The notes under the pieces: generated by a model | The model's input: only the letters and a program-made list of their open reading frames with translations | Told to the model about the DNA's origin: nothing | Databases searched by the model: none | NCBI GenBank assembly: GCA_018645475.1 | Contig: JABGWU010000301.1 | Location: 1-36,687 of the forward strand | Reading direction: 5' to 3' | Length of the DNA: 36,687 nucleotides | DNA from: Opitutia bacterium | GTDB taxonomy: Bacteria; Verrucomicrobiota; Verrucomicrobiia; Opitutales; Seribacteraceae | Shown here: in pieces, positions 26,891 through 35,039 of the stretch | How the letters are laid out: each line of letters starts with the position of its first letter | How positions within the stretch are numbered: the first letter of the stretch is position 1 | Program-made: the position numbers and the translations under genes

Positions 26891-27994
26891 TTGAGAATTG
26901 CGTGTTTTATAACCTCGCATGGATTTGGACATGCAACACGATCTCTTGCTTTGCTTAACAAACTTGCTGAAAAAGAAAATTTAAATGTTTTCATCTTTAG
27001 CACCCTGCCCGCTTGGTTTTTCCAAGAAAATCTCAATGGAATTTCATATAAATACCACCATATTGAGACTGATGTGGGTCTTGTCCAAAAATCTCCCTTT
27101 TTACATGATCTAAATTTAACAATTGATAGGCTAACGACCTTTCTCGACTTCAAAAAAGAAGAGACCGAACCCATACTTCAAATATTGGAAAAGGAATTAT
27201 TTGATTTTATTTTCTGTGATATTTCTCCACTTGGGCTATACCTAGGAAATAAATTAAATATTCCAACCTGCCTGCTTGAAAATTTCACCTGGGAATGGAT
27301 TTATGAAAGTTATCTTTTCAAAAATCAAAACTTCAAAAGACCAATTGAAAAGTTAAAAGACATCGTATCCAAAACAAACTTGCACATTCAAACCAATCCA
27401 ATTTGCAAACCAGATGAAAATCTTCTTCAAATAAATCCAATTTTTCGAACCTGGCGACAAAGTAAACTGCAGACCATAGAGCAAATAGGAATCAATATTG
27501 ATAAACCAATCATACTGATCACCACCGGAGGTATTTCTCAAAAATTTTCCTTTTTGGAAAAAATCAAAAAAGACGATAAACACTTCTATCTTATCACTGG
27601 TGATTACTCAAAGATGGAAAAAGGGAAAAACTACATCTTAATCCCCCAAAAAAATGATTTTTATTTCCCGGACCTAGTTCAACTATCAGATGGAGTGGTT
27701 GGAAAAGCAGGATATGGAACAGTAGCTGAAGTTTGGGGTGCCCAAAAACCCCTAATTGGAATATTTCGGGATGACTTCAGAGAATCCGTACCGATGAGAA
27801 ATTTTGTACAAAAAAATATTGCTGGATTTGAAGTCAGTAAATTTTCCTTTCAGCAAGGTGATTGGATACCAAAAGTTGAACAACTCCTGAGCGAACCCCC
27901 AAAATGTTCTTCAACCATTGAAAATGGTAGTGAAGAGGCGGCTTTAATTATTTCCAAGTGGAGTAAGAATGGTTTTATTACCGAAGGAAATTAA
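26891..27994 (+). CDS. MurG-like/UDP-glycosyltransferase family protein
   Basis: MRIACFITSHGFGHATRSLALLNKLAE and SDGVVGKAGYGTVAEVWGAQKPLIGI; TTG start. Confidence 0.8.
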   Translation: MRIACFITSHGFGHATRSLALLNKLAEKENLNVFIFSTLPAWFFQENLNGISYKYHHIETDVGLVQKSPFLHDLNLTIDRLTTFLDFKKEETEPILQILEKELFDFIFCDISPLGLYLGNKLNIPTCLLENFTWEWIYESYLFKNQNFKRPIEKLKDIVSKTNLHIQTNPICKPDENLLQINPIFRTWRQSKLQTIEQIGINIDKPIILITTGGISQKFSFLEKIKKDDKHFYLITGDYSKMEKGKNYILIPQKNDFYFPDLVQLSDGVVGKAGYGTVAEVWGAQKPLIGIFRDDFRESVPMRNFVQKNIAGFEVSKFSFQQGDWIPKVEQLLSEPPKCSSTIENGSEEAALIISKWSKNGFITEGN

Positions 27995-30900
27995 GCCAAC
28001 AAATCTGGGAAACCGGCCCCGCCTCCTCCAGGCGTTCTAAGGATTAATCGATCACCTGGGTTCATAATGGTGGAATCAACCGATTTCATATTATCTCTTT
28101 TTCCATCTTGACGGATAACAAATTGTTCACCCGATTGTCCGGAAAAACCACCATCCATTCCGTGAGGCTTGCATTTCCGGTTTTGAGTTAAAAGACTAAG
28201 ATTTGATTTTTCTTCAAAAATATAAATTCGTTCTATTCCATCTCCTCCGTTCCATGAACCCCGACCACCCGAGAACTTCCTGATTTTAAAACCGACCAGG
28301 CGAACCGGAAAGCGAGATTCAAGAATTTCTGGATCTGTGATTGCGGTGTTAGTCATATGGACCTGAACGGCTGAAGTTCCACTCGATCCAATCATTGCAC
28401 CCGAACCACCACCAACAGTCTCATAATGACTGAATGATTTATTTCCAAAAGTAATATTATTCATGGTCCCCTGTGAGCAAGCAACTCGATCAAAAGCACC
28501 AAGAATTAAATCAACCAGTTTTTGACTGACCTCAACATTTCCACCCGCTACTCCTGGACACTGACAAGGTATTCTAGAAAAGGTTGGGGATAATATTGAA
28601 CCCTGAGGAATGATTATAGAAACCGGCTTCAGGAGGCCTTCATTGAGAGGAATTTCTTTATTAATTAAAACCCGCAAGCAATAACAAACTGCACTTTGGG
28701 TTATAGCCACAGTCGCATTCAAATTGTCTTTTCTAAAAGAAGCAGTTCCAGAAAAATCAAAAGTCGCGTGTCCGTCTTTTATTTGCAAATCAAGTTTCAA
28801 TTCCTCTCCATCATCAAGGCATTGCGTGGAGGAAAGGAAGCCATTTCCCCATTCACATAAAAACTTCTCACAAATCGTTGACGCATCAAAGTGCAGGTTT
28901 TTCATCTGCACGATCAATGTGTCACAGGTATATTCTGATTCTAAAATCTTCATCTCTTTAAGTCCTTGTCTTAAAGAAGCGACTTGAGCAGACAAGTCAG
29001 CCAGATTATCTTTTATCTGTCGGGAAGGAAATTCGGAATCGCTTAATAAAACTGCAATTTCATTCATACAGGAATGACCCGCCCGAAATAGATATCGAGG
29101 GGATATTACAACCCCTTCTTCCAGTAAATTTTTAGATCCTGCAGGCATGGAACCAGGTAAGATCCCTCCAATTTCAGCATGATGGGCTCGGTTGGCGAGA
29201 AAGCCAATAATTTGATTAGTGTCAGAAAATATTGGTGCGATTACAGTAATATCAGGTAGATGAGAGCCACCGTAGGCAGGATGGTTTGTGATTATAATAT
29301 CTCCTAGTTGTAAATGGGGAAAAAGCTTTATTGATTCACGTACACAAAGTCCAAGTGCACCTAGATGGACAGGTATGTGAGGAGCATTCGCAACCAAGTA
29401 GCCTTCACTATCCAAAAGTGCACAAGAGAAATCTAACCGTTCACGCACATTAACAGATATGGCGGTTCGTTTAAGTTGTACTCCCATTTCCTCGACGAGG
29501 CAAAAAAACCTACTGGTAAACAATTCTCTTTCCACCGTTAACTCATTATCAGAATCAGAACCAGTGGAAATTTCCTCCACCATTATGCTTCCTAAATCCC
29601 CTTTTATCCCTTTCCAACCTCTTTCTATCCAAAGTGCTCCAAAATCATCGACCACTAAACAGGGACCAAAAACAAACTCTCCATGTTCAAGATCATCCCG
29701 ACATATTACCTTTTTTTCTCGAAATCGAGCAGAACGGATGTCTTTTGAAGTAAATTTCTCCTGTCCAAAATCAGGCGACGGAAAGGCCAGAAGAATACGA
29801 AGCCCATAAATTTCGACTTTATTTCTAGCTGGAAGGTATCCAAAAATATCCTCGAATTTATTCTCATATAATTCCCGGATTTCAATTCCTTCTTTATACT
29901 CAACTTCCAAACCTGATTCCTGGCCCTTCATTCGGACAAATGCGGTCTTAATTTCAACATCGGCTTGACCCGAAAAACCTGATAAAAGCTTATAGCCTTG
30001 TTGGATTAATTCGTCTTCAAAATCTATAAATTCGATCTGACTCAATGGGCGGTAAATGGGTTTTTCAATCACCCTTTCTATTCTGGACATCGACAAGCCA
30101 TATGCACTAAGAAGTCCTGAATCACGGGGTGACAAAAGCCTACTCACCCCAAGCTTTTTTGCCACCCCACAAATATGCTGCCCCCCTGCACCTCCAAAAG
30201 AAACGAGGGCATGCTTAGCCGGGTCATAACCTTGCTTGACGGATATTTTACGAATTGCACTAGCCATGGTTTCATCTGCAATGGCAATAAAACCAGCCAT
30301 CAATTCTCTCTCCAAATATCCTGACGACTCCACGCATTCCATAAGTTTTTCCCTTGCCGCCTCTACAGACAGTGGCGTGGAGAATCGATTACTATCCAAT
30401 CGATCAAGAATCAAATTAATATCAGTTAGGCAAAGGGGGCCACCAAATCCATAGCATGCCGGTCCAGGGTAAGCTCCGGCACTTTCCGGTCCAACGATTA
30501 ACCTTCCATTTTCGACCCTACAAATCGAACCGCCACCTGCTGCAACTGTTTCTATCTCCATAGAAACTCCTACTAATTTAGCATCGCCAACATTTTGAAT
30601 TGATTGATAGGAGAAAGACCCTGAAAACCTGGAAACATCGGTACTGGTTCCTCCCATGTCTAGGTTTATAAAATGATTCAAACCAGCTCTTTTCGCAACT
30701 GCACATGCACCAACCACTCCACCAGCTGGACCGCTTAATAAACTATCAATTGCGCGATAGTGATTTCGATTCAATAAACCACCTGAACTCTTCATAATTA
30801 AAAGCTCACCCAGTTCACCTAGACCGGAAACAATATTCCCGATATACTGTTGAAGAATGGGATAAAGATAACCTTCAAGAACAGAAGATTCACTCCGACC

Positions 30901-31716
30901 TAACCAATTCATAAAAGGATGAATTTCTGCGGAAGTTATTACTGTTTGAAATCCAATTTTTTTTAAACTATTAGCTACAAATCTTTCATTCCCCTGATTG
31001 ATATAAGAATTAAGAAATGAAATGACTGCCACCTTATGCCCTTCTCTTACAAGTTCTCTGGCCTTAGGTATGAGTGTAGAAAGATTTGGCTCTTGAATTA
31101 CTTTTCCCGATCGGTCGGTCCTTTCTTCCACTTCCACACAAGGACCAGCGAAAGATTTTCTCTTTCTTGGAATCAGATCAAAAAGATTCACCCTTCTTTG
31201 ATCTCCAATTTCCATTAAATCAGGAAAACCTTGAGTTAAAAAAAGTACGGGCTTTTGCCCTGTATCTTCTAAAAGTGCGTTCGTACAACGGGTCGTTGCT
31301 AAACGCATTCGTATTTGACAATCACTTTGTTTTTGCATCGTCCGGGCTAATATTAAGCGCATCCCAAGGATTGGGGCTTCCCAACCAGAAAACAGCTCGA
31401 TCGTTTCACCTGTAATTTCACTTTTTCTTAATGCTTCAGAAAAACGCAGTATTTTGGTCTCCACATTCCAACTTTCGACTTTCAGTGCAGTCTGATCAAT
31501 TTCTGTAAGAAATATTTTAAACCCAGATGGAAAATTATTTGGCCAATCGGATTCATTGCCCAACTTAATTTCAAATTCTGACAGTTGCTCCACTACCTTT
31601 GCAGTCAAACTTCCTCGGGAAAGAACTTTTTCTCGGATTTCTTTTTTTCCAACTTCTTTTCCCAGGCAATCGGTAAAAGTTCCCCCAGTATCAATAAAGA
31701 AATCCCAAATCTGCAT
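27991..31716 (-). CDS. Hydantoinase/5-oxoprolinase, fused HyuA-HyuB
   Basis: HyuA part FFIDTGGTFTD, LGLNHFINLDMGGTSTDVSR; HyuB part RERLDFSCALLDSEGYLVANAPHIPVHLGALG, GDIIITNHPAYGGSHLPDITV. Confidence 0.92.
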   Translation of the reverse strand: MQIWDFFIDTGGTFTDCLGKEVGKKEIREKVLSRGSLTAKVVEQLSEFEIKLGNESDWPNNFPSGFKIFLTEIDQTALKVESWNVETKILRFSEALRKSEITGETIELFSGWEAPILGMRLILARTMQKQSDCQIRMRLATTRCTNALLEDTGQKPVLFLTQGFPDLMEIGDQRRVNLFDLIPRKRKSFAGPCVEVEERTDRSGKVIQEPNLSTLIPKARELVREGHKVAVISFLNSYINQGNERFVANSLKKIGFQTVITSAEIHPFMNWLGRSESSVLEGYLYPILQQYIGNIVSGLGELGELLIMKSSGGLLNRNHYRAIDSLLSGPAGGVVGACAVAKRAGLNHFINLDMGGTSTDVSRFSGSFSYQSIQNVGDAKLVGVSMEIETVAAGGGSICRVENGRLIVGPESAGAYPGPACYGFGGPLCLTDINLILDRLDSNRFSTPLSVEAAREKLMECVESSGYLERELMAGFIAIADETMASAIRKISVKQGYDPAKHALVSFGGAGGQHICGVAKKLGVSRLLSPRDSGLLSAYGLSMSRIERVIEKPIYRPLSQIEFIDFEDELIQQGYKLLSGFSGQADVEIKTAFVRMKGQESGLEVEYKEGIEIRELYENKFEDIFGYLPARNKVEIYGLRILLAFPSPDFGQEKFTSKDIRSARFREKKVICRDDLEHGEFVFGPCLVVDDFGALWIERGWKGIKGDLGSIMVEEISTGSDSDNELTVERELFTSRFFCLVEEMGVQLKRTAISVNVRERLDFSCALLDSEGYLVANAPHIPVHLGALGLCVRESIKLFPHLQLGDIIITNHPAYGGSHLPDITVIAPIFSDTNQIIGFLANRAHHAEIGGILPGSMPAGSKNLLEEGVVISPRYLFRAGHSCMNEIAVLLSDSEFPSRQIKDNLADLSAQVASLRQGLKEMKILESEYTCDTLIVQMKNLHFDASTICEKFLCEWGNGFLSSTQCLDDGEELKLDLQIKDGHATFDFSGTASFRKDNLNATVAITQSAVCYCLRVLINKEIPLNEGLLKPVSIIIPQGSILSPTFSRIPCQCPGVAGGNVEVSQKLVDLILGAFDRVACSQGTMNNITFGNKSFSHYETVGGGSGAMIGSSGTSAVQVHMTNTAITDPEILESRFPVRLVGFKIRKFSGGRGSWNGGDGIERIYIFEEKSNLSLLTQNRKCKPHGMDGGFSGQSGEQFVIRQDGKRDNMKSVDSTIMNPGDRLILRTPGGGGAGFPDLLA

Positions 31717-31768
31717 ATTTAGGAGTTCTCCTTCGTTATTTCAAACTTAGGCTTTTGAACTATTAAAT

Positions 31769-32194
31769 TTAACTCCATTTCAATAGCATTTGAATATAGT
31801 TTTCGGGCAACCCTACTTGTCTTGCACCTTCAAGTACCTCTTTTTGATAATGCCGGGCGGGTTTACCGTACTTTCTGTTGTTCGATAAATAGACAATGGT
31901 TTCATTTTTAACACCGGTGGGAACTAATGATGCCTGAATCGTAGTTCGATCATAATAACCTTCCTTCACCGCCTCATATTCGTCCAAAGATTTCAAATGA
32001 TTGTCACCCAATTTCCAAACACAACCTAATGTGTAAGAATTTAAATTTTCTTCAATACCTGCATATCCGTTACCGTTTATAAAATAACTCCAATTATTTA
32101 CCCGAGCCTGACAGACAAAAATGGCCCCCGGACATCGGGTTTCCATTTGTTTGAAATTCATATTCGATCCGTAAGCAAAATAAAGACAGTGCAT
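31769..32194 (-). CDS. Gamma-glutamylcyclotransferase-like protein
   Basis: LYFAYGSNMNFKQMETRCPGA and LKSLDEYEAVKEGYYDR match GGCT substrate loop and catalytic Glu region. Confidence 0.87.
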   Translation of the reverse strand: MHCLYFAYGSNMNFKQMETRCPGAIFVCQARVNNWSYFINGNGYAGIEENLNSYTLGCVWKLGDNHLKSLDEYEAVKEGYYDRTTIQASLVPTGVKNETIVYLSNNRKYGKPARHYQKEVLEGARQVGLPENYIQMLLKWS

Positions 32195-32253
32195 TTGAAT
32201 AATTTTTACCTTTTCCAGTTAGGGTAGCAAGCGGAAGCTTTCAAGCTTGTATA

Positions 32254-32397
32254 AAAGTAAGATTTTAGTATTTTACTTTCAGCGTTAGAGGCCATCCATT
32301 GGATTGCCTCCTTGAATTTCAATTCTTGCAACTGCAAATAATTGGGCGGAACGGTACTTTGGCTCACGCTAAAGTACGAATTCACAAGTGTGAATTT
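32254..32397 (+). promoter_or_regulatory. Candidate structured leader of rpsO (four successive hairpins)
   Basis: Hairpins at 32254-32279, 32288-32310, 32354-32377 and 32379-32396; see findings. Confidence 0.5.
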
Positions 32398-32424
32398 CAC
32401 GCATCGAGAAATTAAAATATAATT

Positions 32425-32691
32425 ATGTCTGAACAAGTAAATAAACAAAATATAATCGAAGATAATCGTTCTCACGAGAAGGACACGGGCTCAAGCGAAG
32501 TGCAAGTTGCACTACTTTCTGCTCGTATATCTCATCTTACAGAACATCTTAAGACTCACCGTAAGGATTTTCATTCTCGCCGAGGTCTCCTCATGATGGC
32601 CGCCCGTAGAAGAAAAATTTTAGATTACTTAAAAAGGACCGATTTAAAACGCTATCAAGCTATTATTGAAAAGCTTGAATTACGTAAGTAA
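32425..32691 (+). CDS. rpsO: 30S ribosomal protein S15
   Basis: [52 protein letters not shown]. Confidence 0.97.
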
Positions 32692-32735
32692 ATCACACTT
32701 TTCCATAAACTTGGGGTATAAACCTCAAAATTTCT

Positions 32736-32776
32736 CTCCAATTTTAACCACAGAATTTTGATTCTGTTGATTGGAG
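32736..32776 (+). promoter_or_regulatory. Candidate pnp leader stem-loop
   Basis: Outer stem CTCCAAT/ATTGGAG, inner stem ACAGAAT/ATTCTGT with TTTG loop, in the rpsO-pnp gap. Confidence 0.45.
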
Positions 32777-32846
32777 TTTCGGTTAAACAATTCGGTTGAA
32801 TCGAAAAAAAGAAGATAATCGAAAATCAAAAAAACAGTACGAAAAC

Positions 32847-35039
32847 ATGAATCAAAAGCACAATGTAACCGCCGAAAAACTTGGCATCCAAATATCCACC
32901 GGTACCTTAGCAGGATTAGCAGGTGGAGCCGTCACTATTTCCCTGGGAGAGACTAATGTATTTGTCTCTGCCACTGCCGCATCAAATTTGCGTACAGGAC
33001 AGGACTTTTTCCCGCTCACCGTGGACTATAAGGAAAAATTCACCGCAGCCGGAAAATTCCCAGGTGGATATTTCAAACGTGAAGGTCGTCCTAGTGAAAA
33101 AGAAATCTTAACTTCTCGTTTGTGCGATCGTCCACTCAGACCCCTTTTCCCAAAAGGTTTCCTCAACGAAGTTCAAGTTATTGGATATCTTCTTTCCACG
33201 GATCAGGTAAACGAAGCAGATGTGTTGATGGTCAATGGTGCATCAGCAGCATTAATGATTTCAGATATCCCTTGGAATGGTCCAATTGGTTGCGTTCGCT
33301 TGGGCGAAATCAATGGTGAATTCGTGGTCAACCCGACTAACGAACAAATGTACGATTCATCCCTCGATCTCATCTATGTTGGAAGCGAGAAGGAAATGAT
33401 GATGATTGAAGGCTCAGCGGACCAAATGCCAGAAGACCGATTCGTGGAAGCTCTTGAATATGCTCATGAACAAATTCAGGATATAATTTCAGCACAGCGC
33501 AAACTGGCTGAATTGTGTGGCAAGGAAAAGAAAAACTTTGAATTAGTCAAAGCACCCGACGACATTCTTACCTTATGCAAAGAAATTACGGGCGACCGCT
33601 TGGAAGATGCAATTTTTGCTGACTCCAAACAGGAAAGACAGGAAGCGGTTGATGTCATTAAGGAAGAAGCGTTGAAAGCGTGTGAAGAAAAATTCGGCGA
33701 CGAATTTAACCCTGATCATGTTAAAATGGCTTTCGAAGTTCTTCAGGAAGATGTTTACAGAGAAAACATTTTGGTGCGCGGAAAAAGAGCGGATGGTCGC
33801 CAAGCGGCAGACCTTCGAGAAATTTCCTGTGAAACAGGTGTTCTTCCAAGAGTTCATGGATCTGCAATTTTTACAAGAGGTGAAACTCAATCATTGGTCA
33901 TGTCCACACTCGGAACAAGTCGTGATGTGCAGGATTTAGATGGTTTGACTGGTGGTCCGACTGCTAAATCGTTTATCTTACACTACAACTTCCCTCCCTT
34001 TTCTGTTGGGGAAGCCGGGCGATTTGGTTTCACAAGTCGTCGTGAAATGGGACATGGAGCATTAGCTGAACGATCCGTTTTACCTATTCTACCAGCTGAA
34101 GACGACTTTCCATACGCGATTCGAATTGTTTCAGAAATCATGGCTTCCAATGGTTCGACCTCGATGGCTAGTGTTTGCGGCGGTTCATTAGCCCTTATGG
34201 ATGCGGGGGTACCTATTTCCCAACATGTTGCAGGTATATCCACCGGTCTGGTCACCGAAATGGATGATGATGGGAACATTACCAAGCATGTTGTTCTTAC
34301 GGATATTATCGGTGCTGAAGATCACTTCGGTGACATGGATTTTAAAGTATGCGGTACCAGAGATGGAGTTACAGGATTCCAACTTGACCTAAAAATTCAA
34401 GGGCTACCTTTCGATATTGCAAAAGAAGCCGTAAAACAAGTCACGGAAGCTCGTATGAAAATTCTTTCCAGCATGGAGGAATGTCTTCCAACTCACAGAA
34501 AAGAATTACGCGATCATGCACCTCGAATTGAGGTTGTTCAGATTGACCCTGAAAAGATTGGTGCATTAATTGGTCCTGGCGGAAAGAATATTCGTCGAAT
34601 TACTGAAGTTACCGGTGCAAACCTTGATATTGATGAGGACAACAGTGGTAAGATTCGTGTTTACGCAAGCGACTCGGAAGCAATGAACCGAGCCCTCCAA
34701 GAAATTGACCTTGTTACCGGTGAAATCGAAGCTGGAAAAACATATCGTGGAATCGTTCGGGGAGTTAAAGAATTTGGTGCTTTCGTTGAATGTCTCCCCG
34801 GAAAAGAAGGATTATGCCATATCTCCGAGCTCGCTGATTTTCGTGTCAACAAAACTGAAGATATCTGTAAATTAGGCGACGAAATCATTGTAAAATGCAT
34901 TGGCATTGATGATAAAGGCCGAGTAAAACTTAGCCGTCGTGCTGCGATGGAAGAATCAAAATCTGAGGACGGAGAATCCAAAGATAATGATACCAAGGAA
35001 GAAAAATCCGAAGAAAATGCCGAACCGGCAGCTTCATAA
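32847..35039 (+). CDS. pnp: Polyribonucleotide nucleotidyltransferase
   Basis: [13 protein letters not shown] domain [22 protein letters not shown]1 domain at C-terminus. ATG at 32847 preferred over the TTG at 32796 in the track. Confidence 0.96.

Follow-up and report, generated by a model that had tools for sequence, protein, structure and literature searches.

A pseudoknotted rpsO leader conserved in Opitutales, probably an S15 autoregulatory element of a new structural class

The window analysed here, the whole stretch of 36,687 nucleotides taken from contig JABGWU010000301.1 of an Opitutia bacterium, carries rpsO, which codes for the 88-residue ribosomal protein S15 (32425..32691, on the + strand, as are all features below unless stated otherwise; PF00312, E 7.7e-36), and, 3' of it, pnp, the gene of polynucleotide phosphorylase (32847..35039). 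The upstream neighbour of rpsO is a divergently oriented gamma-glutamyl cyclotransferase gene. Its enzyme makes 5-oxoproline, and it is followed on the - strand (27991-32194 for both genes) by a fused hydantoinase A/B, 5-oxoprolinase-like gene, the product of which opens 5-oxoproline; the two are likely to form a two-gene gamma-glutamyl recycling unit. Three hairpins are possible in the gap between rpsO and pnp (32692-32846), of a kind suiting the processing of pnp mRNA. When the gap of the window was submitted to a test for conserved structure, the fold was not significant (z -1.6).

The region 5' of rpsO is of another nature. An earlier note, made from the letters of the sequence, had described there four successive hairpins, A (32254..32279), B (32288..32310, with one C/U mismatch), C (32354..32377) and D (32378..32397, with its inverted repeat at 32379-32396), as a candidate leader under the control of S15. 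All four inverted repeats are indeed present in the sequence, and A, C and D were also recovered independently. The segment 32254-32460 has a folding energy of -52.2 kcal/mol, while dinucleotide shuffles give -35.8 +/- 3.7 kcal/mol (z -4.4), and since none of the 200 shuffles was equally stable, this fold is more than chance. Relatives were then considered via an S15-guided collection of rpsO loci within the order Opitutales, with a family alignment of 30 distinct leaders running from a CGTTAG box through to the start codon. The G-U wobbles of the hairpins had been taken as the sign of an RNA made from the + strand, an argument that extends to the entire order: over the paired columns of 73 leaders of Opitutales, G-U cells largely outnumber A-C cells (236 versus 36), which indicates an RNA on the rpsO strand. 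Conservation and compensatory change in relatives, which the note had proposed to look for, are both abundant.

The description as four hairpins was nevertheless incomplete, as it overlooked a pseudoknot (P1), a closing helix (P2) and a further hairpin (P3). Together with B, C and D, these belong to a structured leader of about 130 nt (32281..32413), to which two covariance models, R1 and R2, give 117.3 and 106.1 bits, respectively, for a copy that was part of the training set. RNAalifold, applied to the 30 leaders of the family, found 30 pairs, which correspond to hairpins B, C, D and P2; compensatory changes are seen at 23 of these pairs. Two-sided changes affect all seven modelled pairs of B, seven of the eight pairs of D and five of the six pairs of P2, and hairpin C covaries as well. 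The 5' strand of P2 (CUUGAA, 32311..32316, with the sixth pair mismatched in the window) faces a 3' strand (AUCGAG, 32403..32408) that ends 16 nt 5' of the start codon; in the family alignment the helix reads CUYGA against UCGAG and encloses C, D and P3. This latter hairpin (32320..32344) varies in sequence and in length, and is identified by its folding energy in relatives, with a mean z of -3.7 over 76 homologous segments when compared with mononucleotide shuffles, while the window's own copy is weak (z -1.1).

P1 associates CGUU (32283..32286) with the complementary AACG (32350..32353), located directly before hairpin C. With the 5' strand of P2 placed between the two strands of P1, and the 3' strand of P2 beyond both, the two helices cross. 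In an alignment (A4) built with a model devoid of P1, 97.9% of the P1 cells are paired and changes are seen on both sides, despite the P1-free model. Among 77 leaders collected at the level of the order, the four pairs are all formed in 64 and at least three are formed in every one, with variants such as CGCU/AGCG (families f3, f9, f10 and f13) or CGUC/GACG (families f16 and f21). Counted as events on the supported tree, the compensatory changes of P1 are too few for a significant test, with about 2 and 2 informative phylogenetically independent pairs, all agreeing and 0 against. Because P1 is contiguous with hairpin C, coaxial stacking is likely, so that hairpin C is probably stacked on P1. 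For the structure as a whole, 94.6% of the cells of A4 are paired, compared with 70.6% after shuffling and at most 47.9% after sliding, and 29 pairs display two-sided changes; the proportion of paired cells is 91.7% on a second alignment. As judged from this comparison of sequences, the crossing of P1 and P2, which B, P3 and D complete into a compact pseudoknotted domain, is a conserved RNA fold.

Hairpin A does not belong to this domain. A promoter is predicted for rpsO, with a -35 box (TTGTAT, 32247..32252), supported by a conserved CTTG, and, 16 nt past the box, a -10 box (TATTTT, 32269..32274). The pattern recurs in the family: all 30 leaders have CTTG 37-40 nt 5' of their CGTTAG box, and most have a -10-like hexamer 16 nt later. 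Of 75 leaders taken from other families, 69 also have CTTG at about the same place. Transcription of rpsO is thus predicted, on the basis of this promoter, to start near 32281. A non-random hairpin occupies the position of A in only 4 of 29 family leaders, window included. Of the four hairpins of the earlier note, A was therefore rejected as part of the leader: it overlaps the predicted -10 box and, in relatives, is unconserved as a hairpin. For these two reasons it is probably best read as promoter DNA, mostly untranscribed.

The distribution of the leader was examined with the two models. Model R1, with a single family as its training set, detects leaders in other families with E values down to 2.9e-9 and, within the genus, gives exactly one match per genome in the 18 of 18 genomes having a match. 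Model R2 matches 197 of the order's 333 genomes, a number that is a minimum because the filters were strict. A cultured relative, Cerasicoccus maritimus NBRC 105382, is among the carriers of the leader. Outside the order, R2 gave one weak, chance-level match (E 0.035) among some 220 genomes of the same class, and no match in 326 kb of rpsO loci from other phyla. In all 86 matches that were compared with rpsO coordinates, the leader lies directly 5' of rpsO on the same strand, at 9-49 nt from the match to S15 in 84 cases and at 91 and 112 nt in the other two. At the gathering threshold, neither the gammaproteobacterial S15 leader nor any other Rfam family matched the window or 20 relatives, and a permissive search of the window (E up to 10) retrieved only unrelated sub-threshold matches. 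Going by these matches, the leader is conserved across the whole order and restricted to rpsO. The lineage-specific rpsO leader that had been suspected is therefore found again, always just 5' of its gene and confined to one order, with S15 as its presumed ligand.

What points to S15 is the apex of hairpin C, where G32361-U32370 lies on G32362-C32369 (orientation 5'-GG/CU-3'). This G-U pair stacked on a G-C pair near the loop, already singled out in the first description, is kept in the family, where the apex pair is G-U in most leaders and A-U in some, and it equals 16S helix 22 of the genus (identical GG/CU in two genomes). The GU/GC motif makes half of the S15 binding site, approximately one helical turn away from a three-way junction (Slinger et al., 2015; PMC4684408); in the Opitutales leader, counting upwards from the P1/C junction, it is pair number eight. 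Present in the window and in most of its family, this mimic of the 16S site varies at the scale of the order: of the 77 leaders of alignment A5, 46 have a G-G mismatch at the apex pair, 26 have G-U and 5 have A-U, next to an invariant G-C. The apex is not universally GU/GC, and the argument that it provides is strong only within some families. A G-G mismatch also replaces GU/GC in the Thermus mRNA (PMC4684408). Families f10, f13 and f20 each display more than one apex state (G-U, G-G or A-U) among their members, on one scaffold, and at least 15 changes of state are needed on the best rpsO tree, itself weakly supported. Whether one homologous, order-wide scaffold repeatedly switches between GU/GC and G-G/GC recognition elements is in our view an even bet.

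On the protein side, the residues of S15 involved in contacts with GU/GC (H41, D48 and S51) and with the E. coli pseudoknot (T21, G22 and Q27) (PMC4684408) are all kept, nearly invariant, in the Opitutales set. To be fair, this does not prove a contact with the leader, since these residues are kept across bacteria generally because of 16S rRNA. A link between residues of S15 and type of apex was considered and rejected, as most of the positions with the strongest differences (3, 24, 9 and 12) fall within the variable N-terminal part of the protein, and phylogeny is a confounder.

Between P2 and rpsO extends an A/U-rich, single-stranded ribosome landing region without a Shine-Dalgarno sequence (32409..32424). 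None of the motifs GGAG, GAGG or AGGA is present at positions -16 to -5 in any of 95 rpsO genes from Opitutales; the tail of 16S rRNA is normal, a 16S gene of the genus ending with CACCTCC. Initiation of rpsO translation in the order looks Shine-Dalgarno-independent. Sequestration of a Shine-Dalgarno sequence by P2 was discarded as a mechanism, there being none to sequester, and the GAG of P2 lying too far upstream. An intrinsic terminator was looked for in the leader and none was found. Given the lack of a Shine-Dalgarno sequence and of a terminator, and a helix P2 ending 16 nt before the AUG, it is simplest to suppose that S15 stabilizes the domain, which would then block or trap the 30S subunit. 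It is highly probable, in our judgement, that the element is an S15 autoregulatory leader of a new structural class, repressing its gene by blocking 30S loading at a start site devoid of Shine-Dalgarno sequence. The mRNA of Opitutales rpsO, beginning at its predicted start, would fold into the pseudoknotted leader, to which free S15 would bind when exceeding 16S rRNA. The protein would recognize the GU/GC (or G-G/GC) element of hairpin C, and probably the P1/C junction too, and its binding would stabilize the pseudoknot together with P2. As a result, the 30S subunit would be kept either from loading on the A-rich start or from leaving it, and synthesis of S15 would fall.

Other readings have to be weighed. 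It is unlikely that this RNA, real, structured and cis to rpsO, responds to a ligand other than S15, which might be another ribosomal protein or PNPase, or that it serves in RNase III processing: pnp is the downstream gene, to be sure, and in E. coli both RNase III and PNPase control it, but the element stands before rpsO and not before pnp, and the usual ligand of a ribosomal leader is a protein encoded in its own operon. Furthermore, the apex has the S15 motif, and its commonest replacement, G-G, matches another S15 leader (PMC4684408). We hold it for still less likely that S15 binds the leader in order to act on mRNA stability or transcription elongation instead of translation; a long structured leader could well serve as a nuclease target, yet this one is without an intrinsic terminator, and in all the families aligned P2 terminates beside the start codon. 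Finally, that the hairpins are accidents or DNA-level features such as palindromic operators or promoter elements, with no function as RNA, fits the unconserved hairpin A over the promoter, but is practically untenable for B, C, D, P1 and P2, where it is refuted by order-wide compensatory change, by the asymmetry between G-U and A-C cells and by a fixed position before rpsO.

S15 leaders are a textbook case of unrelated RNA folds that evolved for one protein. They have been published for Gammaproteobacteria, Firmicutes, Thermus, Alphaproteobacteria, Actinobacteria and Chlamydia (PMC4137082), as well as for Flavobacteria, Halobacteria and Methanomicrobia (PMC7247131); for Verrucomicrobia we found none in the open-licence literature, a description elsewhere being possible. 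Among these, the leader of E. coli and other Gammaproteobacteria likewise combines a coaxially stacked pseudoknot with a GU/GC mimic of 16S helix 22 (PMC4684408). By contrast, P1 of Opitutales encloses hairpin B, the 5' strand of P2 and P3, while P2 encloses C and D; this pseudoknot holds neither a Shine-Dalgarno sequence nor the start codon, and it has no match in Rfam. The leader of Thermus thermophilus has a G-G mismatch where 16S rRNA has GU/GC (PMC4684408), as do the 46 relatives with that apex, whereas the apex of the window is G-U; the two folds seem to be unrelated, and nothing imitating the three-way junction's G-G-C base triple was recognized in the Opitutales leader. In Geobacillus (Firmicutes) a multi-helix junction has GU/GC about one helical turn away (PMC4684408) and is not described as pseudoknotted, whereas the Opitutales leader builds its junction from a pseudoknot and bears the motif at an apex. 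The alphaproteobacterial, actinobacterial and chlamydial leaders (Slinger et al., 2014; PMC4137082) and those of Flavobacteria and Archaea (Eckert et al., 2020; PMC7247131), also lineage-restricted and also found by comparative genomics, have other folds: the actinobacterial one is a kissing-loop pseudoknot, and the element of Chlamydia is a hairpin over the start codon, whereas the conserved structure of Opitutales stops some 16 nt short of the AUG. The Opitutales leader is thus apparently an undescribed structural class.

This adds to the S15 leaders a strongly supported class in Verrucomicrobiota, with a conservation across an entire order that is deep enough for real covariation analysis. 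It would be a case of autoregulation at a start site without a Shine-Dalgarno sequence. Swaps between G-U, G-G and A-U at the recognition position of one scaffold make the co-evolution of S15 with its RNA directly testable. The GU/GC element, of the E. coli and Geobacillus type, and the G-G/GC element, of the Thermus type, have so far been seen in unrelated leaders; if the switching of the apex is true, Opitutales would provide a natural series for the way in which the recognition of an RNA by a protein changes on a constant fold.
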